From Halichondria panicea (lineage: Eukaryota > Porifera > Demospongiae > Suberitida > Halichondriidae): a DNA stretch of 64,000 bases. The stretch covers positions 13,006,632 through 13,070,631 of the forward strand of contig NC_087377.1 in NCBI RefSeq assembly GCF_963675165.1, given 5' to 3'. The translations under genes and the position numbers were made by a program. Below are positions 8,496-54,766 of the stretch, in pieces. A model generated the notes under the pieces. The model did no database searches, was not told where the DNA came from, and worked only from the letters and a program-made list of their open reading frames with translations. The first letter of the stretch is position 1; the number at the start of each line of letters is the position of its first letter.

Positions 8496-10402
8496 GTGGT
8501 GACGTTTTATATTGCTGCACCAGTTATTGGTAAGTACAGTAGTTATGGCTGTCCATCCCCATTCATTCAACTATCTTGTTTTTCATGTCTAGGTCAGGTG
8601 GAGTACATTAATTCAGATTTGAATTCTGCCGGCCGTAACTTTTCTTGTTCTAATGAAGTTGTCACATATACTTGCAGAGGGCAAGGAGGCACTCTCTTTG
8701 TAAATTCTCCACCATTGTTTAATCATCCTTTCGGCAGTACCGGTCTTGTTCCAAACGCTCAAGTATTCCCCTCTGCTCCAAATGTTGTTCTTAATCTTAT
8801 AAACAGATTTATGAACTCGTCGGGTACATATTATGATGTTAGTCTTCAAATCGAAGTATTGAGTGATGTGCGGATTAATGTTTCATGTTCTACGGATGTT
8901 CCTGGCCCTCTGAATGATTTTGTATTACCATTGATCCACGAGTGTGAGTTTCTCTAGTAATATGAGTAATTGTTAGCTGGTAATTCCGGGGGACAAAATT
9001 TTCGTGGTTGGAGCTCAGACAATGAATATTTTACCCACGAATGAAGCGACTGCCTACATTTACCTGCAGTGCAAGCAGCAACTACGAAAATATATTCCAC
9101 GAAGTGACTAAAATTAATATTGCTCAACCACGAATGTTTTGTCCCCGAAAATTGCCAGCTGTACGGTATTACATTATACCCGATAGAAGGTATTTTGAGG
9201 TTGCGTATTTACTAATGTACCACGAAATTTATACCCATGAATTATTAATTTTGGTTGTCCACAAAAATCGGCGAAACCCTTTTTAACAGTATTCCGCAAA
9301 AGTTTATACCCTCTTGCTATACGGTATTGCATTCTTAGAGTGCAATATGCATAAGTATACTTGTCCCGAATTAGCCAGCTAGATTTAGTACCCCTGTTTC
9401 TTGTCCCGAAAGGAAAATTCAAATATCCAGAAAGGGTTATGCAGGCATGAAGGCATGAAGCACCGCGCAGTGCCACAAATTTTTTATGGAAGCATAGATA
9501 ATTTAGACGATAGAAGCCTATTTAGCTATATATACGAACAGAAACACATGCATGAGGAGATGGAGCGACTTACTATGCATAATATTGCGGACTCAATATC
9601 GTCTAACCACATTTCCATGTGCTGTACATGTGCGGCTGATAACACAGCTCTTAGCGGTTTGACATAGTTCCATCTCCTCCTCATGTGCTTCTGATACAAA
9701 CGAGTGTGCAAGCGCACGCTTGCTAATGCCTCTCGCCATGTTTTTGCTTTCGCTCAAAAGTATTAGAGTGTACGTTGGCTTTGATTGTTTCACAAGAAAG
9801 GGGTTTCCACAGTTAATAGTGCATACTGATTGTGCTTGTAGCCAAGGCATAGTCAGTATAGTCTGTGAGATAAATGACAGAATTCAATCACAGAGAGTAG
9901 TATCTATAACAAGCAGTCTAAAAAGAGTTTAATCAATAAAAGCACCGCAGGTGCTGATGTCTCGGTGGAGATGCCAAAGCTACATAACATAAAGCTACTA
10001 ATAGCTTTTATACACATGATAAACAATTGCTGCATGCAAAAACTCAGGGAGTGGGTAATGATTGACCGTGATTGTTGTTAAAAACGATCGATGCCAAAAG
10101 TTCAAGTCTAGGCTGCATTAGCAGAGCCTTTGCAGCTCTTTTCTCACTCTTGCAGCTACCAATAGCTAGCGTTCTAGTGCAGAGCTAACTACTAAGTAGA
10201 GTAGCAACACTCGGTAAACAAGTTTGGCTACGTGCTCTTCTGAAAAGGCTGTAATGGCATTCCAAGTAAGCAAAACTAGGCATAACTCGAGAACGAAGCA
10301 TTATTTTGCAAATCCACGAATTAAAATCCAAGTAAACATGACTAGAAGCCTATAGAAACTCTTACTTGCACTTGATTCATCCTTGGAGCAGCTGTAGCAG
10401 TC

Positions 10403-23689: not shown

Positions 23690-24450
23690 CACATTGAACG
23701 CAGAATACAGACTGAGCAATCTGACAGAATACGGCATACTGTCTGGGGCATTTACCATGAACACATAACAGACTGGGCTGTCTGGGGCATACAGTCAGGC
23801 GTGAACACAGAATATTGAACACAGAATATGGCATTGACCCAATACAGACTGGGCTGTCATACAGAACAGACTGGGCTGTCTGGGCAGAATACGGCCAATA
23901 GGGCATTGACCGTGAACACAGACTGGGCTGTCTGGGGCATAGCACAGAATACGGCATTGACCCAATAGGGCATTGACCGTGAACACAGAACAGACTGGGC
24001 TGTCTGGGGCATAGCACAGAATACGGCATTGACCCAATAGGGCCATTGACCTTGAACACAGAACAGACTGGGCTGTCTGGGGCATAGCACAGAATACGGC
24101 ATTGACCCAATAGGGCATTGACCGTGAACACAGAACAGACTGGGCTGTCTGGGGCATAGCACAGAATACGGCATTGACCCAATACAGGCATTGACCATTA
24201 ACACAGAACAGACTGGGCTGTCTGGGGCATTGACCGTGAACACTGAATACGGCATTGACCCAATACGGGCATTGACCGTTAACACAAAACAGACTGGGCT
24301 GTCTGGGGCATTGACCGTGAACACAGAATACGGTCAAAATACGGCATTGACCCAATACAGACTGGGCCGTTAACACAGAACTGTCGGGGGCATTGACCGT
24401 GAGCATTGACCGTCTGGGGCATGGTGCAGAATACAGACGGGACAGTCTGG
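23690..24450. repeat. Minisatellite, about 72-bp variable unit
   Basis: The unit contains CAGACTGGGCTGTCTG, then GGGGCATAGCACAGAATACG, then GCATTGACCCAATAGGGCAT and TGACCGTGAACACAGAA. Full-length units in the middle are nearly identical and shortened or shuffled ones occur at both edges. The CAGAC...GTCTG core is an imperfect palindrome. Long open frames on both strands arise from the repeat and are not genes. Confidence 0.85.
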
Positions 24451-25175: not shown

Positions 25176-26490
25176 TTTTTTTTTTTTTTTTTTTTTTATA
25201 ATAATTCTGCAAAATGCATGGATACACTAGTAGCATATTACGCTAACCTAATGTGCGCCCTGTATATATTACTTACAATAGCGAGTACAAATTAAAAATA
25301 AAGACTAATATTATACTAATGCAAGTGACAGAGTACATTTCTCTTAAATGACAAAATCGATGTACTTTCCTGCAGCTCCAGTGGTAATTCATTCCACACA
25401 GATATTGCCTTTGGGAAAAAAGAGTTCACATATGCATTTGTTCTGCAAATTGGTCTTTCAAACTGTATATTTTTTGTGCTTCTTAGATTGAGAGGGCATA
25501 CTCTTCTTTCCAGTGGTGGATCAGAGAATTTAAAGTTACCATTTATTACCTGGTAAAGGTATGATAGCTTCAGGTACAATCTTCTTGTAGAAAGGGACGG
25601 TAGGTCCACAGTATCTAATAGGGAGTCGTAGTCCATATTCCAAAGTTTTGTGCAGATTTTAAGGGCAAACTTTTGTACTTTTTCTATTTTGTGAGAATTT
25701 GTTTTTTGGTATGGATCCCAAACAGGGGCAGCATATTCCAGTTTTGATCTCACAAGGGAGATGTAGAGTTGTCTTAAACATTCTAGTGACGAGTGGCCAT
25801 AGAACTGTCGGTAAATTATACCAACCTGCTTGCAGGCATTTCTGCACATTTCTTCTATGTGTTTTGACCATGAGAGGTCGTGAGAGATCCACACGCCAAG
25901 GTACTTGTAGTGGTCAACTTTAAGTAGGGGACGTCCACTGATATTGAGACACATGTTGGGAAGTGGTGGGCTGAATTTTCTTGATATAGTCATGTATTTA
26001 CACTTGCTTTGGTTAAACAAGAGTACATTTCTTTCAGACCATGCTTGGAGTTGATCAATATCTCCTTGCAATTTTATATAATCTTCAGGAGATTGAATAG
26101 GATGGTAAAGAAGAAGATCATCAGCATAGAGCAAAAGACTTCCTTCATTTTGATGTAGATCGATGTCATTTATATAGATTAGGAAAAGAAGAGGTCCCAG
26201 CACCGAACCCTGGGGAACTCCTGACACAACCTCCGAGATATTTGATGACTTTCCATTTATTATGACATATTGTGATCTATTCCTGAGGTAGCTTGCTACC
26301 CAAGATACCAGGTGGGGATCTAGGTTCAGATTGGTTAGCTTACTCATCAATATCGAGTGAGGAACCTTGTCAAATGCTTTTTTGAAATCAAAAAAGACTG
26401 CACATACACTCTGACCATCTTCAAGCAGTTTGTGCCAATTGTGCACTGCCGTAAGCAGCGCACCTGTGGTGGATTTTTCTTTACCTAGGT
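25176..26490 (-). mobile_element. 5'-truncated LINE (non-LTR retrotransposon)
   Basis: A T-run at 25176-25197 is the poly-A tail on the minus strand, followed upstream by the reverse transcriptase frame. The open frame begins at about 26490, after an in-frame stop, so the 5' end including endonuclease and RT fingers is missing. I could not find a convincing target duplication. Confidence 0.75.
25316..26446 (-). CDS. Reverse transcriptase of a LINE, N-terminally truncated
   Basis: A 376-codon frame without internal stops encodes RNA-dependent DNA polymerase of a non-LTR retrotransposon. Seen in order: motif A FFDFKKAFDKVPH (residues 18-30), motif B GVPQGSVLGPLLFLIYIND (about 80-98), catalytic motif C LLLYADDLLLY (about 105-115), then HYKYLGVWISHDLSWSKH and the thumb/C-terminal region to the stop. 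In-frame codons upstream of 26446 continue the family pattern (STTGALLTAVHNW), so the annotated start is only a convenience. The family normally carries an upstream endonuclease, absent here. The intact YADD and the open frame suggest a fairly recent insertion, but it cannot be autonomous. The clade is not resolved from sequence reading alone. Confidence 0.85.
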   Translation of the reverse strand: MHNWHKLLEDGQSVCAVFFDFKKAFDKVPHSILMSKLTNLNLDPHLVSWVASYLRNRSQYVIINGKSSNISEVVSGVPQGSVLGPLLFLIYINDIDLHQNEGSLLLYADDLLLYHPIQSPEDYIKLQGDIDQLQAWSERNVLLFNQSKCKYMTISRKFSPPLPNMCLNISGRPLLKVDHYKYLGVWISHDLSWSKHIEEMCRNACKQVGIIYRQFYGHSSLECLRQLYISLVRSKLEYAAPVWDPYQKTNSHKIEKVQKFALKICTKLWNMDYDSLLDTVDLPSLSTRRLYLKLSYLYQVINGNFKFSDPPLERRVCPLNLRSTKNIQFERPICRTNAYVNSFFPKAISVWNELPLELQESTSILSFKRNVLCHLH

Positions 26491-26769
26491 TTCATCTTCT
26501 TGGAGTTGCAACTGTTGGATGGTTTGCCTTTGCCTTTGACACTGCTAGTACAAGCCATACTGCTGCTGAGAACTAGTTTTACTATGCTGCAATCGAGCTA
26601 GCTAGCTGGCACAGATATAAAAAATACTTTGATTTACCTTGTGCGGTCAAAGGTTACGCGTGGGCGTTTTTGTGGGCAGTTCTAAAAATAGCTCAATACG
26701 AAGTCGGATGATTCTGAGAATGGGGCGAGTTGCATGCCCTCTTCTCTGTATACGCCCTTGGTTTTACTA

Positions 26770-38866: not shown

Positions 38867-41800
38867 ATGAATGCAAGGTCATCAGATCTACAGATTGCTG
38901 TCACTCTAGCGTTGCTTATTTTAAGTTGGTCATGCCGAGGGGAAGGTAGGTAGATGTAAATAATAAATTATTATTAAACAATGTTACACAAAGCAGCTTA
39001 TTTGACAATAACCCCCACTGTGGCTTGTCCTGATGACACTGTATCCTTCACCTGCACTCTGCCTGGTAGCTTTATACGATGGGTAATCCTTCCACTGCAA
39101 GGGGCCCTGTTCAGCATATCTTTATTTTCTAACAATGATGATGTCACAGACGGTATTCCAGCATTCCGTGGTGTTCGCAATGACACGAGTGAAGATAATG
39201 TCACTGCCACTCTCATTTCACTGTCCAAGGCCTCCATTGTGGAGGGTTTTATGGTGGAGTGTATTGGGGCTAGCTCACGAGAAGGTCCTCTTCCCATTAC
39301 TGTTGCTGGTGAGTGGTTGATGAATGAGAATTACAAAGTTTGGGCGTTGCCTGGTTTCCGTGAAACGAATAATACAGTGCATGCAGTGTATGATGTGCCA
39401 GGGTTTTGTACAGGGGGGAAGGGGAGATATCCCCCCCTAGATCCAATTTCTCCCCCCCCCCCCCCCCTAAAATGTGCATTCATGTACTAGTTGTATGACT
39501 GAGTGTCCATAGCTGGCAATTTTACATACTAACAGGGTAGCAAAATTTTCTGGTTACTTTTGTTACTTCCCGGCCCCCTCTACTTCAAAATCCTGTATGA
39601 CGACACCCTGTATAATGCACACACACACACACAGATCCACCCTCCCCTCCCTTGAGTCCAAGAGTCTCCTTCACTCTAAACCAACCCAGCTACTCTAATA
39701 CTACCCTGGAGTGGGGCCCTCCCTCCTCTACTGGCAGTGTGTCTGTCAACTATGTCGTTACTATCTCCCCAACACCTTTCTCTGGGTCACCAGTCACCGT
39801 GGAGGCCATCTCGGCACAGATAACTGTCTCCTACAACACTCTCTACAATGTGACTATCAGAGCTGACAACTGTGCAGGAATGAGCCAAGAGAGTTTAATT
39901 ATGGATCTAAGTCAGTCATGATTTATATAGCTAATACTATATAATTCCTCCTCCTTAATGCAGTTGTGTGCCCCACACCGTCTACTGCTGCTGATGTGAC
40001 TATCACCAACACACCTCCTGTCACTATTGGTGGATCTATGCTCACCTTCACTTGCAGAGACAGTGAAGTGATAACCTCAACCTGTGGCAGTAGTGGGTGG
40101 TCTCCTGACCCTGGGACCTTCGACTGCAGCAGTCCAGTTACAGGTATCATGCATGGGCAATTAACTCTCTAAAAGGAATGTTGATCTCACGCATTAGATC
40201 CCCAAGTCAGCTGTGGTTCTCCTGCTATACCATCTAGAGGTAGTTTGGACATCAATGGTGGGACACCACCCTTCTCACTGGGTTCAGAGATAACTTATCG
40301 CTGTGACGATGGACTGTTCCCTCCTGATGTGAGGACCAGCACATGCACTGATGTGGAGGGTAGGGGAGAGTGGGTGGAGAATCCTAGGAGCTTGGTGTGC
40401 AGAGTGAGTCCAGGTAATACAGTATACAGTGACAGAACAAGGTCAACCATTAAATTGTCAATCCTTTTTTCAGTCAACTGCTCTCTTCCTGCTGAGCCAT
40501 CCAACGGAACTATAGTGAACTATGAGAGGTTGAATGAGACAGTGTCTGAGGGAACAGTGCTGACTTACCAGTGTGACAATGGATTCTCATTGACTAAACC
40601 CAACACCATCACTTGCACTAATGCTGGAGTCTGGAGTATTGAGCCTGAGGCAATCATGTGTGTGCCACCAACTGAAGGTGAGAGTAATGAACCCGAGGCC
40701 CGAGGCACATAGCAACCACGGGGGTTATGGTAATCCCTTGATTTGTTTGTCTGTGTATTTAAAGTCTGCTCACCTGGCTGCCATAATTATATACTATAGC
40801 GCCTTCTTTTACAGCACGAATAGCCTCAACACAACATATTATAATTAGTGGGAGCAGATTTAATTTTGTGGCAAGCGAGCAAAAAAGTTATAGTTTATAA
40901 GACGGTATACAATATGTAGCTAAACATGATATATATGCCTTTAATTTGAGGCACGCTATTACACATGCGATTGTGCCCTTGTGCACTATACATGCAGCCA
41001 TGTGCATGCATGGAGCCTTATTTCATGGGAAGACTTCTTAACTTGCTGGCTTCATTATTATACTGTGAGCCTATACTCCGGTCCCACGCATATATAATGT
41101 GTTAGGTGTGTCCTATACATGTATACTTGTAACACTCCAGGCCTCGATCTTTGCTAGCTCTGCTGTAATTAATCCTAATGGTCCGGGACTCTCAGTGCAT
41201 GTCAGATGCCACTAAGGTTTATTTCAGTGTGGCTTAGCATGTTATAATTATTTCACCTGCTTAAAATGTTCTGTCACCTGCTTGGAGCATGTTCTCACAG
41301 CTCAACAACTGTAAGGCAATGTCGTTCCCTATCAAAGACACCATCTGCTGGCTAAGGGATTTTTGACAACAAGTAGGAACTAATGAAACAGAAGTTCATC
41401 TATATATCACCCCCTCCTCAACTATAACCTCAATCCCAGGCAGCACTTCCTTTCTTCAATGGAAGGCTTGTGGCTACCTGGCCCTCAACTTAGCGCATGT
41501 AACAACAATTAATTAATGACTGTACATTATTAGTCACAATACTATACTACATTGTATAGATCTACTATGAGCAGTAAGGCAATTACATACATGTATGTAC
41601 ATGTAGCACACAGGCTGGCTTACAAAGCAATCTTCTTGACGACAACCAGGTAGATGAAGAGTATGACAACTATATAGCTGGTACATTATATACCGGTATA
41701 ATACAACATCGCATGCTCCAGGGTTTGCAGCAACATTGCAGGAAGTTACCACAAGTCAACCATTTTGTCTGGAAAACGTTAAAGTAACATTTTTCTGGGG

Positions 41801-42644
41801 GGACGCAAGCAAGCGTCCTATATGCTAGCTACGTGTCAACCACATGTCACCTACATGCTTGGGAAAATCTGAAATAAATCCTGATTTGGACTTCTTTGCC
41901 GACTTTACTGAGATCCTATAGTGAATTATATAGTCCCATGCATGAAGTGCATGTCTGACCATGTACACCACCATCTATCTACGTGCACGTGTCAAGTGGC
42001 ACCACGACCGTTTCAAAACCTTTGTCATAAGGCCATGCAAAGTAGTTTCTCAGGCCCTCGCGCTTGGAAATTGGCAGCTTTACAATATCACGTGACCTCA
42101 AATTAAAGAAAAAGAAAAGGATAAATTGATATGGTTTTTTGGTCATGAACTAAAATTAATTAGTAAAAATTATGCACTTCCGCTTATTGAGAAAGTTAGG
42201 GGTGTGTTTTCAATTAAAATTCTATGAATATCATTATCATTAAATGCCTCAATCCGCTTGCTATTTTAGCCTGAGAAACTACAAATTGACTTTGCATGGC
42301 CTAAGTGTATTATACTAGTAGGGTATATACGAATCTGATTGTGCTCTATATAATGTTATGCCAATAATTACTGCCAATCCTTCACAGCTGCCACCCTATC
42401 AACTGGTGCAACTCTTGCCATCGGTGTTACTACTACTTTCGTTGCATCTACTATCCTTGGATTTCTAGCTGGACTCCTAGTGATGTATTCGTTCACGCGT
42501 AAGAAGGCAGTGTACTACACAAGAAAAACAGCATTATCTGTTGTACAACCCACTAAACCAGTTGGTCCTGTTTATGAAGAGGTGTCACCCAAAGAGGAGA
42601 TTGAACTGAACACTAACCAGGCGTATGGACCAGTAGGACTGTGA
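38867..42644 (+). CDS. R1: Ig-like/FN3/sushi transmembrane receptor, intact
   Basis: Seven exons, all joined in phase 1 with GT-AG sites: 38867-38945, 38997-39308, 39635-39910, 39964-40143, 40198-40413, 40474-40677 and 42388-42644. The product has 507 residues. Exon 1 gives a signal peptide (LQIAVTLALLILSWSC). Exon 2 is Ig-like (VSFTCTLPGSFIRW ... MVEC). Exon 3 is FN3 (LEWGPPSSTGSVSVNYVVTI ... YNVTIRADNCAG). Exons 4-6 are three sushi/CCP modules (for example ITYRCDDGLFP and LTYQCDNGFSL). Exon 7 holds a transmembrane helix (TTFVASTILGFLAGLLVMY) followed by RKK and a tail of about 45 residues with VYEEVSPKEE and NQAYGPVGL. It should sit in the plasma membrane with the modules outside. YEEV resembles the pYEEI motif favoured by Src-family SH2 domains, and NQAY is NxxY-like. 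Signalling is inference. The start was chosen because it opens the signal peptide. The 1.7-kb last intron carries a repeat fragment. Confidence 0.85.
40710..40880 (+). repeat. Partial 16.1-kb-type repeat in the last intron of R1
   Basis: Shares AGTCTGCTCACCTGGCTGCC and GCACGAATAGCCTCAACACA with 16210-16260 and 31130-31160. Confidence 0.45.
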
Positions 42645-44600
42645 ATTTTGTACTACTAACTTTTGTACTAACTATCATCATGCATACAATTTAAGTTTTC
42701 TAGCCAGTATTATAAGTGTTTCATCGATCTGCTATAGACTGCTAACCGTTTAAACAGTTACTTTAATTATATAATTAAAAACAATAGCAATTACATAATA
42801 ATGTTTTGTTAACAAAAAATATACACACAATTAAGTCATAATAATTATTATGCACAACATTGAGAGAAACTACAGTACTGTTACTGTTCTGTAAAACTAG
42901 TACTGTCCAGATACCTGCAGTAATTAATAAAGGAAGTGCTGCCATATGAAGTTAGGAAAGTAAGTAATTATATAAGAGACATTCCATGCATGTCACAAAC
43001 AATAATGTGCACCCTCAGATTTCAACAAAACTTGGTATAAAATTATAATTATGTACACACCTTTCCATAATAAGTATATATTAGTCGCATGAATCAGCCG
43101 CACCTCTCAGAGAGGAACGTCTGAGTATTTTCTACGTATAATATCATGACAATGGAACGTATTACAACGTACACTGTATATATACAAGCTGACAAAACCA
43201 TAAAAATCATAACAGTGCCACATCCGCTATCTCTGTTTAGCCACAACATTTGCTTGCTGCCGTAAAGTTTCATATTATTTGCTGCCTCCTATTCAATTCA
43301 AGTCACCTGATACTTGTGAGCAATCTTATTGGTTACATTGTAATTCCATCGTGGCCCATGAACTTACATAAAGAGTGCTCAGACCCTTTAGGAGGGCGAC
43401 TGATTCATGATCGCCAATAATAAAATTATGGCTTCTTAGCCTTTAAAATCACCATAATTATTTTGGTGATCACCCAGGTCATAGAACATAAACTTTTGCC
43501 ATGATTCGAATAAAAACTGATAGGACTGTACCACCGTACTCCTTATGATATGGTATTTTAGGTGACATATTTAAAGGGGATGGGCACTCGTTAAAGGGTC
43601 AAAGCTTATTGTTGCATCCTTTAATTACTCAAAAATGGCGTCTTTAGTTACTATTGTCCGCCTTTTATAACTTAATTTCGTGATGAGATCAAAAGATATG
43701 GACATTGCAATATAAAAGTGAACTGCAGTTATAGACATGATTGTGGGTCATTCCATAGGAATTGCCTATAGCTAAAAGGGTGACCTTTCAGAATTCTCCA
43801 AAGCATCACGTATATTATAATTATTGCTTCTGAGGTAAGGCCACCTCTTAAAAAGAAAAACAACTTACGATCAGAGTGTTTCCAGAGTGTATTCTTGTAG
43901 CTAATGTAACAACTAGGTTTTCACAATGTTGTGTGGCCAGATTATGGGATAATTAACGTTAAAATTTGGTTAACAATTTGGTTTGAAACAACTAATTGAA
44001 AGGTATACTATATAGCGGATAATTTTCATTGGTGCAATTTTCATACTAACTACCTATTTGTATTCGTACAGTTCAGGATGGTGACGTTGAATATAATATG
44101 AACAATTCTCAGTTTTAATTTTTGTAGCCACTGATATGAAAATTTCCACCATACGAAAATAACCCACTATAAGGTAATTGGCAGAAATTATGCTCTATGA
44201 AGCATATAGGTAGTCGGGTCACCAACATTTTAGTGAATTTTGAAGGACTCGTAAATAATTATGAAACATGGGGCTAAGGTGTTAGTATGTATGTTTCGTT
44301 GAAATCTGAGGGGGTGCTCATTTTTTGTGTTGACTAAATTGAGGAATGTCCCATAAACGAAGTAAGTACTTTAAGTGACACATGTACGTGGTATAAAGTG
44401 GAGGTTTAGCCTAAGCTGAGTGGGTTTGGTTGTGAGTTAGCTTAAGGGTCATACTGAATGACACAATAAACATACGTGGGTACAGTAATAATCGTCCTGT
44501 ATAAGGAAAGTTGGACTTGAGCCTATGTCATGCCATACAGTGCTATCATACACATAGACAGAAGCTAGACATTACGTAATAACTCACGTCGGATTATGTT
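42645..44600. other. Intergenic, no gene; diverged fold-back at 43082-43410
   Basis: AT-rich 3' flank of R1. The segment near 43082-43410 has TAGTCGCATGAATCAG at one end and CTGATTCATGATCGCC at the other, a diverged relative of 35576-36043 without a clear target duplication. No polyadenylation signal stands out as unique. Confidence 0.4.
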
Positions 44601-44629
44601 GTTCTATTCTCCCAGCAGCTGACAGAGTG

Positions 44630-45090
44630 AAGTGAGACAGACCACTACAGCAGACTGCATGCACCAGGCATTATCACTGCTCTGTGAGGGGTAAATGTAG
44701 TATCTCTACATTATCAATAATAGGAAACAAGGACACATTTAATTTATACCACATGTACAAAATTAAGTACCCTTATCAAACACATCTTTGTACATGATCA
44801 GTACACCTAATCTACACAACATTAACATACCTTTATCCCATACCTCACTACACCCTTAATCACATAGCATACCCACACACATCTCACACCCTCACACACC
44901 ATTCTTCTCCCACGGCTCTCCCGGCTTGTGATAGTGTGAGTCCACACATTGATCCTCCCCTCCTCATTTTGGGGCCAGTAAACCACATGAGAACATCTGC
45001 TGATCTGTGTGGGTCGGGTCGTTATAGATACAAGGCACTACCCCAATACAGCCAGTCCACGATCAATACCAGAGGAACTGAGGAAGGGGG
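44630..45090 (-). pseudogene. Fragments of the HEAT-like neighbour gene
   Basis: On the minus strand, 44635-44700 carries a copy of the exon at 55730-55793 (acceptor CACAG, then SSDNAWC) ending in a stop. 44890-45080 carries a copy of 50880-51060 (frames reading YNDPTHTDQQM and WPQNEEGRINVW). Frames are interrupted relative to each other, so this is debris of a duplicated gene, upstream of R2. Confidence 0.4.
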
Positions 45091-45126
45091 AGGAAGAACT
45101 GTAGTAAAAATAATTTGCTTCTTATA

Positions 45127-45340
45127 CCGTACAGTGGGAAATTTTTGTAAGGTGCGTTTCGAGGGCACGGACAGAATACGGGAAAATTAAACCTGGGATA
45201 AACTCCCAGCACTGGTATTCACATGCAAAGCTATGTGAGTGTGGTTTCCTGGAATTGAAATGCGATTATTAGAATTCACGAACATTTATGCTGAGGGCTC
45301 TGGAGCTAAATAGCGAACATTTCCCGCTATTATTATACGG
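45127..45340. mobile_element. CCGTATAGC MITE, second copy
   Basis: Same family as 5372-5576, with inverted ends and flanking TA. Shared internal blocks include ATAAACTCCCA and CACATGCAAAGCTAT. Confidence 0.6.
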
Positions 45341-45593
45341 TAGCTTAAAACACGATCAGCATTAACATTAAAGCACATCCGCACACAATCTTTCAGACAG
45401 CTGTTCAGGTAGTAACACAGTGGAAAGTAAAGCTCAATGCACAACAAATTGATTGCCAAGCAGCAGCTTACAAAGTTAAAGAAAGAGATAGAGAAACTTT
45501 ATAGCATTTTGTACAAGTGAAGTACAATATGGAGATAAGACAAAGAATGTAGTGGTCACCCACACTGCATTCTTTGTTCACTTTGTTCATTCA

Positions 45594-45619
45594 GATCACT
45601 AAGTTGCAACTTAGTGATC
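45594..45619. repeat. Perfect 26-bp palindrome
   Basis: GATCACTAAGTTG is followed directly by its reverse complement. It lies inside a larger imperfect inverted pair, ACAAAGAATG at about 45541 and CATTCTTTGT at about 45570. Confidence 0.6.
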
Positions 45620-45951
45620 TGTTACAGAACACAAAGGATTTGGAAGGTGATACACTCCATACTAGTTAAACTGTAACAGGAAAAAATTTCTTAATGGGGC
45701 TTTCATACTTGTATAGTGTTGTTTTCACATGGTCAGAAGCAGAGATAATAAAAACCGCTCATGGTATCGAGGCTAACACAAGAGCACTGACTTGTACTTG
45801 TATCTCTGAGCAAAATTGGCGAAAGTAATTTTAACCTCATGTGTGTAATCACGTATCAATCCCTTGTATATAATTATGGGGGATAAAACATTGATGCAAA
45901 AGCCCCTGTATGGGTGAGTGATAATTGATGCCGTAACAATGCAGGAACAGC

Positions 45952-46028
45952 AAATGACCTCTTAACTAAACAATGAATAACGTTAAAATTCGCACTTATT
46001 CATTGTTTAGTAAGAGGTCATTTGCTTA
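45952..46028. repeat. Fold-back repeat with 29-bp arms
   Basis: GCAAATGACCTCTTAACTAA... is matched in reverse by ...TTAGTAAGAGGTCATTTGC, with one mismatch and a loop of about 18 nt. About 160 bp upstream of the R2 start codon. Confidence 0.6.
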
Positions 46029-46188
46029 TTAATTTTTTTATTAGAGCTTTATATAGGTCTAGGAATTGTAACATTGGTGCATGTGATACACTGATCGTTT
46101 TCATGTAATCCCTTTCCTTTGATGTGCTATCATTCTATAGAATAGGCAGAGGCTGGTTTAATTCTAGTCCACTAACTGGTAAATAGAG

Positions 46189-47649
46189 ATGATCACTGGA
46201 CTTCTTATGATTTGCTTTCTAGCTGGCTTCAGCACTGGTAAGACTGACTATTCACTTATAGAATTCTTTACATTGCTGCATGTTTCGTAGAGCCCAATAT
46301 TCAGTGTGAGTGTGGAGAGACCATGTCCAATGGAAACAGTCACTTTCACCTGCACTGCTCCTGTTTTAATTATTTATTACACAGCCTCTCCGGATCCAAT
46401 GAACTGCACAGCTTCACTACTTCCATCATGGAATGGCACCATCAGTGGTCATTCAGTACCAGCTATTCCCGGTACACAAGTGACCTTCCAGTGTGACGAC
46501 GGACTGTTCCCTGAGGGCACAATGAATGTCATCTGTTTAGCTACAGGAGAGTGGGACAAAAATCCTTGGGAGATCGTCTGCCGACTTGAACCTAGTAAGT
46601 TATTTATTTAAGTAATGGGCATTCACTATCCCCTGTACCCAGTTTTGTGTGTCCCGCCTGCCCCTCCACTCAATGGAGCATTACTCAACACCTCTCAGAA
46701 TACTAATGCAATTAACCGAGGGCTCAGTTCCAGTGTGCTCCTGGGTTCTCACTGGTGGGTGCAGCGACTGCCACTTGTAACAACTCTGGTCTCTGGGATC
46801 CTGACCCGGCTCTATTGGAATGTTGTACGTACGCATGAGTAGTATAATAAACCAGCTGATACAACTATACAATTATATAAGCCAAGGTTTGAATTACTAA
46901 ATGAGCGATCTATTTTCCAGTTTCCTGTGTCCTGCCTGTCCCTCCACTCAATGGAGTGTTACTCAACACCAGCTCTCAGAACATTAACCTAATGGAGGGC
47001 TCAGTCATTACCTTCCAATGTGATTCTGGGTTCTCACTGGTGGGTGCAGCGACTGCCACTTGTATAGCAACTCTGGTCTCTGAGATCCTGACCCTGCTCT
47101 ATTGGAGTGTTGTACGTATATACACATGAGTAGTAATAGACTATAGCTGGTATACAATGATATATATATATTATAGCCAAGATTCGAATTACTATAATAC
47201 TTTAAATAAGCTCAATAATCTATTTTTACTATATTCGTTGTATACCCAGTTTCCTGTGTCCTGCCTATAATTATAGTAGTAAACTATAGCTGATATACAA
47301 GAACTTTTTATTAGTTTACTCTGCATGCCTTCAATTTATCTATTGGATTTCACTATATTATTGTGTAATTTAGCCTTCTCCCATGCACAGTTCAATCACC
47401 CACTCTATTTACCGGAGAGATTCTTTCTATCAGTGTGGTTGTCACTGCAGTTGCTTTCTTAGTCATTGGATTCCTCGCTGGACTCCTAGGATGCACCTTT
47501 GCTCTCGTAAGAAGGCAGTGTACTTCCCAGCAACTAAAGGACAAGCTAACGTAGGACCCACTCCAGTTGGTCCTGTTTATGAAGAGGTGTCACCCAAAGA
47601 GGAGATTGAACTGAACACTAACCAGGCGTATGGACCATTAGGACTGTGA
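46189..47649 (+). pseudogene. R2: decayed copy of the sushi receptor
   Basis: Exon 1 (46189-46237) still gives a signal peptide (LLMICFLAGFSTG). The Ig exon keeps only its first 60 bases (CPMETVTFTCTAP), with 2 extra bases near 46305 relative to R3. After 46363 it jumps into the intron before a sushi exon, so the rest of Ig, FN3 and one sushi are deleted. The sushi exon 46385-46594 is intact. Two more sushi exons (46643-46828 and 46921-47115) carry an 8-base loss and a 2-base gain that shift the frame. In the last exon (47391-47649) an extra T near 47421 and a missing base near 47489 put the transmembrane part out of frame, while the tail (VYEEVSPKEE ... NQAYGPLGL) is in frame to the stop at 47647. 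A short secreted or sushi-only product by exon skipping is conceivable but not supported. Confidence 0.7.
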
Positions 47650-48240
47650 AACTTAAATTACTATAATATTCCCACAGGCATATTTATCGGTTAAAACTTA
47701 AAAACTTAAAGCTAATTAGTATAATTAAAGTGTTTTTACAACAAAAACATTTGCGATGTAAAGTTGCCGGGGGAAATATCAAAAAGCGTGGAAACAAGAA
47801 AGCGGGCGAGCTGAGAGCATAATGACAATCCGTTTCACATGTATATCTTTCTCGCAAACTTTTTAAGTTCAAGTGCGGCCTATAATTATAAAGAGAAGAG
47901 AGCAACTCACTATCTACCCACGTATATAATCACCAAACTTCATATCAGAGGCAGGATACATGCATGATCTAGTACTGTAGAACCTCGATTGCTTGGTTCC
48001 AGAAGCAGGCTGGATAACTGAATGACCGGATAATAGAATGGATAAATCATGCCTTGATAAACAGCAGTGGAAATTTGGTGCACGTGCATGGGCAGAGAAG
48101 GATTGTCAGGGTCAATAGGTCTTAATCATAAACCTGCTTCCAGGGGACTTTAATTGAATTCCACTCATCTACTCTTCCTTTAGTATCTCCAATTTACATG
48201 GAGCTAGCTGCGCATTTTATACATACACTGTTTGTGATTC
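47650..48240. repeat. Spacer with fragments of three element families
   Basis: About 47895-47960 resembles the end of the element at 24850. About 47975-48110 is a truncated copy of the pogo-like element at 3163-3473. The rest is non-coding. Confidence 0.45.
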
Positions 48241-48251
48241 TCTCCGAGAGT

Positions 48252-49333
48252 TAGCCTCGATCCCAGGCCGAGTTTTCGCTTTTATAACGGTTAGGCGAAC
48301 AACTGGGCCTGGTACTAGTTGTCTGCGCATGCGTCAGTCGTTCGTCAGATTCTGACGAATGGATATTCTCGTTCACTTTTGTGACATTTATATTCGTGTA
48401 CTATCGTGTACTAGAAGTCAGTTCCCGTTTTATCATTATTGGAATCGATTGGAATGGCTCTTAGCTGAAGCTTCTCTCTTCTCTGAAGCTTATTCTGAAG
48501 ACTGAACAACAAGGGAAGAGGTATAAAGCTTTGTCAAGCTTGTTAAGGTCAGATATTTTTGTGTGGGCCCTATGGCCGGCTATGCTATCAAGTCTTGTTC
48601 ATGTTTGGCAAGAATGTAGGTAGACTATAGTTTCATCATTAATATGGTGGATCAAGTGAAGAGTGTGAGCTAGAGAACTTGGTGCTGCCATCATCAGCTC
48701 GTCGACAATGACACTATAACCGAGAAATTTAATATGTATAGATCTACACGTATTTAAAATGTCTACTTCTCTGTACAGGAGCAATGGCTAATATCCAGCT
48801 ATCCCAACAGTGCTCCTCTTGGCTATACTAACGGACGAGACTGGACAGTTTGAGGTAAGGGTTTAACCGTCTTTGGTTTCTTTTAATATTGTCCTATACT
48901 CACAGACACAGGACTGGAGTATGACCTGCTCATTCGAGCGTTGCTGGGTAGCTCAGAGACATCAAGAGAATCTACGTTTTCTCAAGCAATGAGTTACGAG
49001 TTGGGGCCTAGAATCAGAGAAGTCCAGCAGCCTGCTAAATCTTTTTGAAACGTAATTTGAAGGCATTCAATCATCCTGAAGTTGCCCTGGGTCACTGTAA
49101 TTGTGCTGCAGCACAACTGGCAACTCCCCAGGCCTTTGTGAAGCAGCTCCCTATGTGCATCTTTTGTGTACTCACTCTGTGCATTTTCTGTGTATTATTG
49201 ATTTATTAAATATTTTTGCCGACCACAAAATAATATACAATGAAAATTTGACGCATGCGCAGACAACTAGTACCAGGCCCAGTTGTTCGCCTAACCGTTA
49301 TAAAAGCGAAAACTCGGCCTGGGATCGAGGCTA
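48252..49333. mobile_element. 9-bp-TSD fold-back element, 1082 bp
   Basis: Perfect inverted ends of about 84 bp starting TAGCCTCGATCCCAGGCCGA. The duplication TCCGAGAGT is exact at 48243-48251 and 49334-49342. The interior of about 910 bp has no transposase frame. Largest member of the family in the window. Confidence 0.82.
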
Positions 49334-49370
49334 TCCGAGAGTATACAAGATTAAAACTGCCATTATAATG

Positions 49371-49949
49371 AAAGCACCGCGGGTGCTGATGCCTTGGTGG
49401 AGGTGCCAAAGCTATATATAACATAAAGCTGCACACATTATTTCATGATGAATAATTGCATTAATTAACTTTGCTGCATGCAGACAGAATCCAGAATCAC
49501 AGGGAAACTCAAAGAGTGGGTAATGATCAACCACGATTGTTGTTAAAACGATCGATGCCAAAACTTCAAGTCTGAAATTGATGGCTGCATCAGCAGAGCC
49601 TTGTAGCTCAATCTCTTCTCATGCACTCTTGCCTGCAGCTACCAATATATAGCTAACATTCTAGTGCAGAGCTAACTACTAAGTAGAGTAGCAACACTCG
49701 GTGAAGAAGTTTTGCTATGCATGCACTCTTCTGAAAAGGCTGCAATGGCATTCCAAGTAAGCAAAACTAGGCATAACTTGAGAACGAAGCATTATTTTGC
49801 AAATCCACACATCAAAACATGACTATAGAAGCCTATATATAGAAGCTCTTACTTGCACTTCATTGATCTTGAGCAGCTGTAGCAGTCTATACACACACAG
49901 AGACACACAAAACACACTACCGTATACTTTGCTGCACACCGAGGCATAA
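49371..49949 (+). repeat. Interspersed repeat C1, copy 3
   Basis: Same order of blocks as 3484-3993 with several small insertions. It ends CACACCGAGGCATAAC. Confidence 0.65.
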
Positions 49950-50369
49950 CTAGAACACTGAAGTGCTAACCCTCGGCAGCTTTACCTTTCGCAACCAAGC
50001 AGGTATAATGATACGGTATGTACATGAACATGGAAGGGCCTAGCGGCGACTGAGGAAAATAAAATTTTAGCGCTAGTGTTGCATGGTCTAGCATACACTA
50101 GGACTGTATATAGGATCATAGCAGAGTTAACAGAAATTAGGCACCTGACATACACTGTGGGAGTCCTGGACCGTTATTTAGATCACAGCAGAGTAGGCCT
50201 GGAGTGTTAAAAGTAGGACACCAGCCTCACATGCAGTGGGACCGGAGTAGGCTCACAGTAGCCAGTAAAGAAGACCCTGGAGTCTCTTCCCATGAAAACA
50301 AACAGGTATCCAAATGGCTGCGCAAGTGTAATAAAATTCCTCGAATTAAAGCCGCGTACGTGTATCTAG

Positions 50370-50560
50370 CTATAGCTCCATGGCGGCTAGCTATAGCTCC
50401 ATGGCTGGCCAACGTGCAAGTTCAAGCTTCTTAGCTTTTTTTCATTCGACAACGAAGCTTTTAACGTCAAAATCTGCCACAATAACTTGTTGCATGAGTG
50501 TTACTGTAGGCTGTATACGCAGTGCTATGGCATCCAGATAAGTAAACTCTGATATTATAA
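50370..50560 (-). repeat. Reversed fragment of the 16.1-kb-type element
   Basis: TTCGACAACGAAGCTTTTAA, GTCAAAATCTGCCAC and CAGTGCTATGGCATCCAG match 16225-16330 in reverse. A duplicated block TAGCTATAGCTCCATGGC is at 50376-50407. Confidence 0.5.
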
Positions 50561-50649
50561 CAAACAGGTAAACCAAATGGCGGAGGGTAATTGTTATAAT
50601 TATTTTACCTCAATTTACATATTAACACAACACATTCACAAGCTGTACT

Positions 50650-51060
50650 CAACACTTGGACACTTGGATCCTTGTGTATCACTATAGTGACCACCACATT
50701 TATACCATATGCACATCTACAAAGTACTTTATCACACACATCTTTGTATGATCAGTACACCTATATATTAAAATCTATACATACATCATCATACCTTTAT
50801 CCCATACCCCACTACACCTTCAATCATATAGTATAACATACCCACACACATCACACACCCTCACCCTTCACTTTTCTCCCACGGCTCTCTGGCTTGTGAT
50901 AGTGAGAGTCCATACATCCTCCCCTCCTCATTTTGGGTCACTGAACCACACGAGTACATCTGTTTGTCTGTCACGATGGGTCGGGTCGTCATAGATACAA
51001 TGCACCACCCCAAATACAGCTGGTCCAGGATCAATACCAGAGGAGCTAAGAGAGGGATAG
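50650..51060 (-). pseudogene. Second copy of the HEAT-neighbour fragment
   Basis: Matches 44740-45090 over its length. On the minus strand one frame reads IDPGPAVFGVVHCIYDDPTH, RDRQTDVLVWFSDPK before a stop. The flanking non-coding part also matches, so the duplicated unit included introns. It lies upstream of R3 as the first copy lies upstream of R2. Confidence 0.4.
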
Positions 51061-51186
51061 CAATAAGAAGGCTATGCTTGACTGATTATGCCAACAGAAT
51101 AATAGGGACATATAATTAAATGGGTGGTATATCTAAACTATTATAGTGTAAGCATAATTATCTTATACGTATATACTGAGCATAAC

Positions 51187-52136
51187 GAGTGTTGCAAGCG
51201 TGCGCTTGCTAATGCCTCTCGCCATGTTTTTGCTTTCGCTCAAAAGTATTAGTGTTATAGAAGAGCTAAATAATTTGCGATGTGCTTTGATTGTTTGGGG
51301 TGTCCACAGTTAATAGTGTATACTGATCATCTTAAATGGCCTGTAGCCAAACAGTGGGAACAAATAGTCAGTACTCTGTGAGATAAGTATTAAAGACAGA
51401 ATTCAATCACAGAAAGTAGTATCTATATAACAAGCAATCTAAAAATAGTTATCAGAAAAGGTTGGTTTGTGGCTTACCAGGACCTCAACAAAAAGAAAAT
51501 TGATTCTGCCAGGATCTGGGGTTCAAAATGGATTCTCTTACACGTGGTTTGAGCGCGCATGCGCATTACATCCAGGAATAAGGGGTGTGTCTGCAAGTCC
51601 ATTCACAAAAATTACTAATGGCTACTAAAATAGCTAGCTTCTTTAGCAGGTCTTTCTGACGCTTGTAGCTAACAAAAAGCTAGCGCTTTAGTGCAAGGCT
51701 AACTCCTGCTTTTGAGACTTACCAAAGTATTATCACCTTCAATAGTGTCACATATTCTAACAACGCTCCTCGAGCACCATACAATGTGTTGTGGTCTACT
51801 GTGATATTTTATGGAGGAGAAAGCGTCTTCAAAAAGAACTCCCAAACTGCTTGTTTCTTGAGTTTCAGTAATATATTATGACAATTACGGGAAAATCAAC
51901 ATTTTACTTCATAAGTTGAATAGAAAGTTTGTGCGAACAGATGATCGATGCTATGAAAGATTCTGAAAAGACTGCAACAGCCTTCAATGTGAGTCAAACT
52001 AGCCATAAATCGAGAAAGAAGCTTTAGTTTGCTAATCCACGAATCAAATCCAAGAAAACTTGGCTAGAAGCCTATAGAAGCTGTTAGTTTTCGTCGCATT
52101 GCAACCGTTGAGCAGTTACAGCTGGAATACACATGC

Positions 52137-52185
<49 letters not shown>

Positions 52186-52233
52186 CACAGTCAGCTTTAC
52201 CGTATCCCTCGTACGGCTACGCGTCGAGGCATA
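51187..52233 (+). repeat. Long C2 repeat with a 190-bp insertion and GACA tract
   Basis: Starts near GCGTGCGCTTGCTAATGCCT and ends CGTCGAGGCATA. About 190 bp at 51713-51903 are absent from other copies and split GGCTAACTC from ATAAGTTGAATAG. The usual CA tract is replaced by (GACA)n at 52137-52187. Confidence 0.65.
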
Positions 52234-52239
52234 ATTAGA

Positions 52240-52700
52240 TGCATATAGTGTGGTGTGGGTAGGGGGGAGGGTTCAATCTTTTGATTTTATTCAATGTCAC
52301 GGTATGAAATTGGGCCAAGGTATGTAAGTACTCTTACCACTATCAGCCGCATTAGAAAGAGTTTTCCCCCTTTTAGCTAAATCGAATTATTTTTCTGATT
52401 GACAAGAACGTTCTCTTTAAGAGACATAATAATTCAAGATGCGTATTTCGATCTGAGGACAATTACACAGCATAATTAGAATAATAATGAATGAGCATTC
52501 ATAAAAAATAGAATAGCCCCTAAAAGAAAGGCCACCAGATGCGGTGTTCAGATGCGGTGTTGTATCAACAAAATTATAATTATACGAAAACAGGAAGTGT
52601 AATTAATATATGCCTGCAGGGAAGGGATGTAAACAGACTAAACAAAGAAGTTGTCTAGTCAGCAATCACATTGAAATGTAACCTTCTAAACTGTCAATAA
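52240..52700. other. 5' flank of R3
   Basis: AT-rich with a GATGCGGTGTT duplication near 52538-52560. The last bases before the start codon are similar to those before R2. No TATA box can be singled out. Confidence 0.35.
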
Positions 52701-52707
52701 ATAAGAG

Positions 52708-54766
52708 ATGACACTAATAGAGATAAAGCTCATTAGAGTTCTCCTGATTTGCTTTCTGGCTGGCTTCAGCACTGGTAAGACTGACTAGGTTTCCTTATAC
52801 ATTGCTGCATGCTTTGTAAAGCCCAATATTCAGCGAGTGTGGAGAAACCATGTCCAATGGAAACAGTCACCTTCACCTGCACTGCTCCTGGAGATTCCTT
52901 GAGATGGGTGTCTTCAGATGGTACTCGCATCGCTATCTTTTCCACCTTAGAGCTCAATGCACCAGTAATGCAGTCAGGTTACACTGTGACACTGATTGCA
53001 GCCAACGACACCACATTAACGTCAACTCTGTCCAGAACAGCAGAGAATGGGATCACTGTGTCCTGTGTGGACCAGCCTGCGCCTTCAACAACCATAGGAT
53101 CTTCAATGATCCAATTGGTTGGTGAGTTGCAATAAGTGCCTCGCCAGTTATCTCACAATTAATAAGTTAAATAGATCTACCAGGATCACCTTCTACCATA
53201 AGACACTCCATTGCAAGCAGCTTAGCCCATGAAGTTAGTGTATCTGTGCAGTGGAACCCTCCTACTGAGACTGGTGGTAGAGATGACCTCACCTACACAG
53301 TGACCATCTCACCTCCAGCCCAGCTCTTTGCTACTGTCCTCACATCAATCTCTGTCACTGTGACTGTTCAATACAATGTGGACTACACTGTCAGTGTTGT
53401 GGCTACCAACTGTGCTGGGAACAGTACAACAGCTGAGTACAACTTTAGGATTGGCGAGTTTTATTTTATTTTATTGGACACAGTGTCAACTCCTTTTCAA
53501 GTGGCTGTCTTGCGTTGACCAACCCTGTGAATGGAGCGTTTGGACCTGTCTCCAGCAGATTGCCTGGATCCACAGTAACCATCCAGTGTGATGCTGGATA
53601 TGTGTCTGCTGTTACAATGGTGACATGTGAAGATACACTGATGTGGAGTCTAGACCCTGAGGCTATTGAGTGTACATCACTACCCACACTCCCTCCCACA
53701 ACTCGTGAGTTGAGTTCTTCATTGTACAAAACTTAATACTTAAAATTATTTGTTTCACCTCACAGCTCTTCCAATGAACTGCACAGCAGCACTATCCCTA
53801 CCACAAAATGGCACCATCATTAGTGATCCTTCAGTACCAGCTATTCCCGGTACACAAGTGACCTTTAAGTGTGACAATGGACTGTTCCCTGAGGGCATAA
53901 TGACTGCCACCTGTCTAGCTACAGGAGAGTGGAACAAGATCCTGGGGAAGATTGTCTGCAGAAATGAGTCTAGTAAGTTTATACCTGGTTTATGGTTCAG
54001 TGTACTCAATTTATTGAGATTAAAATTCGAACTACTAAAACCATTACCTTCCAATGTGATCCTGGGTTCTCACTGGTGGGTGCAGTGACTGCCACTTGCA
54101 GCAACTCTGGTCTCTGGGATCCTGACCCGGCTCTGTTGGATTGTGTATCTAGAAGTTGTACGTATATATACTATAATTATATAAGCTGATACAAGATCAT
54201 AGTACCATTATTATATATAGAGGGTAATTTTCTTGGGGCAAAATATTCGTGATTTTCGTGGTTGATGGTCTGACCACGAATATTTACCCACGAAAGAAGG
54301 GACCTTGCCTACCTTTACCTGTAGTGCAAACTCCAACCACGAAAATATTACCCACGAAATGTCTCAAGATTGCTGAACTACGAACATTTTGTCTCCTGAA
54401 AATTACCGCTATACGGTAGTCTTATATAATGTACTTCTGTGATGCATGCCCTCCCGTTGTCTGATATTTTTCGCTCTAAAAATTTAGCCTTCTCCCATGC
54501 ACAGTTCAATCACCCATCCTATTTACTGGAGAGATCTTTCTATCAGTGTGGTTGTCACGGCAGTTGCTTTCACAGTCATTGGATTCCTCACTGGACTCCT
54601 AGTGATGCACCTTTGCTCTCGTAAGAAGGTAGTTTACTTCCCAGCAGCTGAAGGACAAACTAACTTAAGACCCACTGTACTAGCTGGCCCTGTTTATGAG
54701 GAGGTGTCACCCAAAGAGGAGATTGAACTGAACACTAACCAGGCGTATGGACCAGTAGGACTGTAA
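52708..54766 (+). CDS. R3: Ig-like/FN3/sushi transmembrane receptor, nearly intact
   Basis: Exons: 52708-52774 (signal peptide IRVLLICFLAGFSTG), 52834-53121 (Ig-like, VTFTCTAPGDSLRW ... ITVSCVDQ), 53175 to about 53457 (FN3, VSVQWNPPTETGG ... VVATNCAG), about 53502-53704 (sushi, VTIQCDAGYVS), 53766-53972 (sushi, VTFKCDNGLFPEG), about 54001-54161 (third sushi, TFQCDPGFSLVGAVTATCSN) and 54505-54766 (transmembrane SVVVTAVAFTVIGFLTG plus tail). The tail ends VYEEVSPKEE ... NQAYGPVGL as in R1. Two joints are weak. After FN3 the phase-1 donor would be GC, while a GT donor four bases later is phase 2 and fits the next acceptor. The third sushi lacks its first third and no acceptor restores the phase left by exon 5. 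It may be a recent pseudogene or skip that exon. Same expected role as R1. Confidence 0.65.
54222..54418. mobile_element. TACGGTA MITE in the last intron of R3
   Basis: Left GGGTAATTTTCTTGGGG and right GAAAATTACCGCTATACGGT are diverged inverted ends. Related to 8980-9168. About 90 bp from the acceptor of the transmembrane exon. Confidence 0.55.

Follow-up and report, generated by a model that had tools for sequence, protein, structure and literature searches.

In Hydractinia, the allorecognition complex (ARC) holds the Alr genes, described in the available parts of the papers cited here as at least 41 clustered loci of low sequence identity, with pseudogenes, V-set and I-set domains and a membership of the immunoglobulin (Ig) superfamily that is backed by AlphaFold (PMC11067881; PMC11999971). 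In Botryllus schlosseri, the highly polymorphic fuhc locus governs the natural transplantation reaction (PMC12065747). Sponges, too, distinguish their own grafts from foreign ones very specifically (PMC5450542), and in the literature searched, as far as its accessible text goes, we found no paper that names the receptor genes for this discrimination. Here, we describe a family of candidate receptors from the sponge Halichondria panicea, starting from a stretch of 64,000 nucleotides (RefSeq assembly GCF_963675165.1, contig NC_087377.1, positions 13,006,632 to 13,070,631 of the forward strand; hereafter the window, with positions counted from its first letter) that contains one intact family member, R1, and two damaged ones, R2 and R3. 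Our interpretation, held with about as much belief as doubt, is that this is a sponge multigene receptor family with diversified V-set heads and a near-constant FN3 domain and two-tyrosine tail, which probably serves allorecognition in a manner like that of Hydractinia Alr.

The sponge genes resemble Alr in being clustered Ig superfamily genes with a V-set head, a single transmembrane (TM) pass (judged by eye) and interspersed pseudogenes. They differ in the extracellular part, which combines one V-set domain with an FN3 domain and two or three sushi modules instead of V-set and I-set domains in tandem, and in the larger array (at least 177 tails over about 3.7 Mb) with its near-invariant tail end. 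We regard the Hydractinia ARC as the closest working analogue; the sponge family, known here from the genes of one assembly, would be likened to it by function and not as a member of Alr. The Botryllus fuhc proteins differ from those of the sponge array, a distinction made from general knowledge and not by sequence comparison. Aggregation factors, the long-standing candidates for self-recognition in sponges, are extracellular proteoglycan proteins with a Calx-beta/wreath-domain core; R1 has instead the layout of a single-pass V-set receptor and no Calx-beta match in a Pfam scan at E 1, so that the two are set apart by description. In a graft transcriptome of Amphimedon queenslandica, genes of aggregation-factor-mediated adhesion were not significantly enriched, according to the available part of that report (PMC5450542). 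Unlike the sponge SRCR receptors, R1 holds no SRCR domain (PF00530) in the same scan. Vertebrate NITR and KIR/LILR genes form multigene clusters with diversified Ig heads on transmembrane stalks and often tyrosine tails, but they lack the FN3 and sushi stalk, and the sponge tail motif is no canonical ITIM or ITAM. The Ig-like proteins of the sponge Geodia cydonium have kinase or other cytoplasmic parts and are encoded by few genes, unlike the giant family with a short tyrosine tail described here. Those known from Geodia are a receptor tyrosine kinase and an adhesion molecule (PMC12018476; PMC11999971), and V-set domains have been counted in Dysidea avara, where the text of the report gives 594 sequences and its table 564 (PMC12909245), so the richness of sponges in Ig domains as such was already known. 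We found no paper that describes an array of this kind in a sponge, as judged from titles and the beginnings of abstracts in a literature coverage that leaves out most subscription papers.

Extent and composition of the array

The original prediction was a tandem cluster of three copies on the plus strand, at window positions 38867 to 54766. Its coordinates are right, but the extent was missed: at least 177 tails on contig C1 rule out the three copies as the full extent of the family. The assembly searched comprises 131 Mb in 39 contigs, and the count of 177 is a lower bound since each genome search scored the best 150 candidates. With the TM-tail exon of R1 as query, 150 of 297 candidates were scored, of which 149 lie on C1 and one on C7; five of the 150 contain stops, and amino acid identity of the tail to R1 is 52-100% among the matches listed. 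A search with the last 26 residues (150 scored of 262 candidates) gave matches on C1 throughout, at least 44 of them identical to R1 across all 26 residues. Taken together, both searches mark at least 177 places between 11.249 and 14.928 Mb, about 3.7 Mb, which is more than 50 times the number of tails in the window cluster. The listed tails are concentrated within 11.2-13.95 Mb (168 of 177), where 142 of the 168 are on the plus strand.

Ig exons occupy the same interval. Those of the R1 type gave 112 matches in the genome, two of them on C6, and those of a second type, first seen in R3, gave 131, one of them on C32; almost all lie inside the tail interval. The match on C32 (2551-2850, minus strand) may belong to the array as a piece left unplaced or derived from an alternative haplotype. 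Family Ig exons mark 208 places, 204 of them within 11.2-14.95 Mb, in a count that includes split fragments but neither duplicate rows that overlap nor the matches on C6 and C32. Upstream of 136 of the 149 C1 tails found with the TM-tail exon, a family Ig exon lies on the same strand within 12 kb (30 of R1 type, 55 of R3 type and 51 weaker or partial), and for 13 there is none. Stops are absent from the 42 strong R1-type exons on C1 and present in one of the 78 strong R3-type exons. Five further loci, one with an R3-type Ig exon and four whose Ig exons are weakly related, have by eye the order Ig, FN3, two or three sushi modules, TM and tail; a stalk of FN3 and sushi modules is common to R1, its two near paralogues (L039 and L040) and these five loci.

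The array bears the marks of birth and death, as had been proposed: identical or near-identical duplicates at varied distances, damaged members, and different ectodomain types on near-identical tails. Among the 30 loci nearest to the R1 tail, alignable stretches longer than 700 bp are 80-100% identical. The members of identical pairs are separated by 30 kb, 234 kb, 718 kb and 1.32 Mb, and some identical loci measure 3.3 kb. Damage is seen in R2, in R3 and in L042, the copy on C7, and the reading frame of L040 is broken in sushi 2. Markers around R1 recur at 74.3-76.8 kb. A simple 75-kb tandem duplication would fit this spacing but is unsupported as an intact unit, because the 5' flank of R1 is unalignable to those of L039 and L040 (37-51% mismatch).

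Heads, stalks and tails of the receptors

R1 is a complete gene model on the plus strand, with its ATG at 38867, a stop ending at 42644, seven exons, six GT-AG introns that are all in phase 1, and 507 amino acids; this bears out the original prediction of one intact copy. Exon 1 (38867-38945) encodes the signal peptide MNARSSDLQIAVTLALLILSWSCRGE, with 100% amino acid identity in L039 and L040, and exon 2 (38997-39308) the Ig-like domain, taken as the variable V-set head on the basis of its splice sites, predicted fold and diversification. The FN3 domain of exon 3 (39635-39910), near-constant among the nearest paralogues, is followed by a short sushi-like module in exon 4 (39964-40143) and by sushi modules 2 and 3 in exons 5 (40198-40413) and 6 (40474-40677). 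Exon 7 (42388-42644) adds the TM helix and the short cytoplasmic tail ending in GPVYEEVSPKEEIELNTNQAYGPVGL. The signal peptide and TM helix were judged by eye from the sequence, as was the exon 4 module, which has four cysteines and no Pfam call. A Pfam scan of R1 recognized two sushi stretches (E 3.1e-13), scored FN3 below the curated cut-off (20 vs 25 bits) and matched no Ig model.

The Ig exon of R1 models as a V-set domain, whose strands are predicted to follow one another as A B C C' C'' D E F G (strand names are ours). It is structurally nearest to the V domains of antibodies and T-cell receptors, which are its best structural matches among the folds compared; a Foldseek search with this model gave no match at E 0.001 or better. 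The fold prediction covers the R1 type, and the R3 type is tied to it by a profile comparison (related, 96.5%, E 9e-10). In R1-type exons, C20, W29 and C89 (the B-strand cysteine, C-strand tryptophan and F-strand cysteine) are invariant in 30 of 30, and the R3 type has C19, W28 and C81 in 21 of 21. Pfam Ig models at E 0.01 matched none of these 30 and 21 exons, and one R1-type exon weakly matched Invasin_D3 (E 0.0099). Across the genome, where 150 of 172 candidates were scored, 36 matched the Pfam V-set model at E 0.001, and C1 11.2-14.95 Mb holds none of these. With about 200 places for family Ig exons and no listed Pfam V-set match inside the array, the V-set repertoires of sponges are perhaps undercounted. 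Groups of Pfam-recognized V-set domains lie away from the array, at 5.07-5.16 and 1.64-1.73 Mb on C10 and at 5.66-5.72 Mb on C4.

The nearest relatives of R1 differ from it mainly in the head. Against L039 and L040, the signal exon, introns 1-3 and 6, FN3, sushi modules 1 and 3 and the TM-tail exon of R1 differ by 0-2.7%, and the Ig exon by 4.8-6.1%. Synonymous divergence of the Ig exon (3.1% and 2.5% against the two paralogues) is close to that of pooled introns 1-3 and 6 (1.9% and 1.6%; p 0.66 and 0.39), whereas at nonsynonymous sites the exon diverges by 7.1% and 5.6%, which exceeds the same introns with p 5e-5 and 4e-4 (the comparisons share R1, so that these p values are dependent). The ratio of nonsynonymous to synonymous divergence (dN/dS, or omega) of the Ig exon is about 2.3. 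Nonsynonymous and synonymous changes were counted by parsimony with a script written for this analysis and not with a published program. The intron pool leaves out introns 4 and 5; intron 4 differs by 34% and sushi 2 by 13-14%, and the two together form one divergent tract that looks like a conversion tract. Because the sets of Ig exons and tails were collected for their likeness to R1 or R3, they tend to overstate conservation; comparing exons within the same genes, as in R1, L039 and L040, avoids this bias.

Sets of young copies show a similar excess in the head. Their Ig dN/dS is 1.55 in a set of six, which includes one copy (L046) with homology lost after FN3 and sushi modules 1-3 misaligned, and 2.27 in the five without it. 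Segregating sites are more frequent in the Ig exon (27/312) than in its two flanking introns (13/348, p 0.009) and in FN3 (4/276, p 6e-5). In wider sets, nonsynonymous changes concentrate on the front face of the V domain: they amount to 4.0 per codon in the front-sheet strands C C' C'' F G and to 1.7 in the back-sheet strands A B D E (p 0.011), with synonymous changes alike in both (2.0 and 1.7, p 0.20).

Several results weigh against diversifying selection on the head. The test of nonsynonymous versus synonymous changes on the six youngest copies is non-significant (p 0.10), and FN3 itself has a dN/dS of 1.24 in these six, on few changes, and 0.83 in the five. The stalk is partly variable, as sushi 2 and 3 vary too (dN/dS 0.42-0.48 in five copies); in the five young copies, variation reaches 19-21% in introns 4-5, 7% in sushi 2 and 10% in sushi 3, which we read as probable replaced tracts. 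In wider sets, omega of the Ig exon is below 1 (0.65 for 27 unique R1-type exons and 0.58 for 21 of R3 type), none of the R1-type sites, taken singly, reaches significance for positive selection, and the dN/dS summed over twelve disjoint recent pairs (of which three are identical) is 0.71, with flanking introns more diverged (5.4%) than the exons (4.3%). Positive selection across the whole family is therefore unsupported, and we claim it only for the V domain of the youngest copies. The diversification that had been predicted shows in the V-set heads of young copies as signals of positive selection and of exon mosaics, signals that the wider sets do not give.

Mosaics are seen in L055 and L056, which have 4 differences in 250 sites of the intron just downstream of the Ig exon and 36 in 306 sites of the Ig exon itself, including 15.5 synonymous differences in 81 sites. 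Selection was rejected as the explanation and replacement of the exon preferred, because synonymous change is high too. Pieces of both Ig exons best match different loci, one piece of 60 columns exactly, which fits gene conversion confined to the exon, acting on top of selection. In L041, an R3-type ectodomain is joined to an R1-type tail, so heads and tails also reassort.

The end of the tail, the reverse of the head, is strongly conserved. In 46 sequences (25 of the 30 loci nearest to the R1 tail, 20 further tails and R3, all chosen by tail similarity), omega is 0.19 for the last 26 codons, 0.54 for the TM segment and 0.85 for the linker. Left out were L014, L023 and L035 (stops), L033 (identical to L032) and L036 (minus strand). 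All 46 sequences keep both tyrosines, even though synonymous changes occurred 2 and 9 times in the two codons. The motif, YEEV x13 YGP[V/L] with a second part NQAYGPV/L, does not fit an ITAM (YxxL/I x6-12 YxxL/I), as the spacing of 13 residues is longer than in the classical motif and V stands in place of L/I. The TM helix of R1, read from the sequence, has no charged residues, which suggests signalling via the receptor's own tail.

Self, microbes or cell identity

In the mechanism we propose, many germline receptor versions sit in one megabase-scale array, new versions would arise by duplication and by swaps of exon-sized tracts between copies, and the youngest copies would be under positive selection on the V domain. 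The membrane-distal V-set head on its FN3/sushi stalk would bind ligands that vary, whether these belong to a microbe or to a cell in contact, and the tail, with YEEV and NQAYGPV/L, would signal via SH2 or PTB proteins once its tyrosines are phosphorylated. The computation shows the gene structure, the minimum copy number, the array, the V-set model, the contrast of head and tail and the conserved tyrosines; we infer ligand binding, phosphorylation and a use in allorecognition where cells or tissues meet, as in the Hydractinia Alr proteins. Self/non-self recognition is the most likely use of the receptors, with chances that we see as roughly even. A stronger version is more tentative and rather to be doubted than believed: the array would be a megabase-scale histocompatibility (allorecognition) complex of the sponge that escapes ordinary domain annotation, and its TCR-like V domain would be diversified both by gene conversion within the exon and by positive selection at the binding face, with a single signalling tail retained. 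In support of the original prediction, the genes have the features of diversified recognition receptors in a birth-and-death cluster; their "immune or self/non-self" use is the part that we infer. On the side of doubt, YEEV and YGPV could be YxxPhi endocytosis signals, and most of the same features are predicted by microbe recognition as well.

Microbe recognition, in which the same diversified receptors would sense symbionts, food bacteria or pathogens, like the expanded SRCR and NLR repertoires, and would have no role in allorecognition, is the next candidate, if an unlikely one. Genes of H. panicea that respond to lipopolysaccharide include ones with sushi and immunoglobulin domains, according to the available part of the report (PMC8242945), and the best solved-structure matches of the R1 sushi modules are complement proteins. 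The fixed tail and the diversified front face of the V-set domain would be closer to Alr-like contact receptors than to scavenger receptors, but no result of the analysis discriminates between the two uses. Less probable by a good way is a code for cell-type or tissue adhesion within one animal, whose diversity would label cells and not individuals. Ig and FN3 modules are typical of adhesion proteins, and, its sushi part aside, R1 has few phmmer matches, to modules of titin and Robo3; the identical and 95-99% identical duplicates, the damaged copies and the fast nonsynonymous change in the youngest copies are better explained by an arms race or polymorphism. We give slightly less credit still to a mostly inert birth-and-death array with few working genes, or one inflated by unmerged haplotypes in the assembly, which the damaged copies, the identical 3.3-kb loci and the Ig exon on C32 would favor, since stops are rare in tails and strong Ig exons (even if stop-free exons do not prove whole intact genes), omega of the tail is low, the identical pairs share no one collinear offset and the listed tails are in most cases too divergent for a haplotype origin, so that haplotype duplication is rejected as the sole cause while individual identical pairs may be assembly artefacts.

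If allorecognition is indeed the use of the array, germline diversification of V domains for self/non-self recognition would extend to sponges, and diversified V domains on signalling receptors would, once confirmed, serve recognition in a lineage far from the vertebrates. Because the genes map to one interval and their head, stalk and tail are defined, the self/non-self question in sponges becomes open to direct genetic and biochemical tests.

Damaged copies and neighboring features

R1 is the one intact copy of the three in the window. R2 (46189-47654, plus strand), predicted as decayed, is a pseudogene on the reading of its exons, because the start of its Ig domain is fused to a sushi exon, FN3 found no match, the TM frame is broken and two sushi exons are degenerate; it retains a signal exon and a TM/tail exon, and its tail was also recovered by the genome search with the last 26 residues (C1:13054200). 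R3, also on the plus strand, had been called borderline. It carries the shared tail in its TM and tail exon (54536-54766), with the last 26 residues identical to R1, but in our reading it is damaged as well, because the donor after the FN3 exon (53184-53453) is GC where its relative L117 has GT, the first sushi exon (53502-53704, ends approximate) has lost its acceptor AG, and the third (54043-54150) is a remnant without its 5' half. The remaining exons of R3 encode a signal peptide (52708-52774, read by eye and aligned to L117), the second-type Ig domain (52834-53121) and the second sushi module (53766-53972).

A different small family is represented on the plus strand of the window by a second Ig-like and FN3 pair (8496-8957 and 16940-17362). 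Its first exon has nine strong relatives including itself, all on C1, with identities of 100, 96 and then 53-62%, three of them with stops, and relatives of its FN3 exon adjoin them. In most other copies the two exons start about 0.5-0.6 kb apart; in the window they are about 8 kb apart, and the intron has therefore probably grown here. Pfam matches of this family are weak (DUF7836; fn3 below cut-off). At four loci (L068, L072, L069 and L071, at 11.69, 12.34, 12.41 and 13.35 Mb on C1), the R1-type Ig exon bears a long insertion and is preceded, at a distance of about 2.6-3.4 kb, by a copy of this second exon, a hint of larger compound genes.

The window also contains, on the minus strand at 25316-26491, an open frame of 391 amino acids that by eye from its translation resembles the reverse transcriptase of a retroelement, and at 23692-24409 an internally repetitive block (self-match about 66-79%) that yields long spurious open reading frames on the minus strand. 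Elsewhere in the genome, sushi domains are dense in regions apart from the array, at 0.2-3.5 Mb on C4, 5.62-5.68 Mb on C9 and 6.45-6.48 Mb on C2 (best 150 of 4112 candidates). Of nine cathepsin-like pieces that were read, seven carry CGSCW or CGGCW. The other two, both on C2, have CGASYAFS and CGASYAFA, in which serine takes the position of the catalytic cysteine; this is the mark of silicatein and fits a siliceous sponge.

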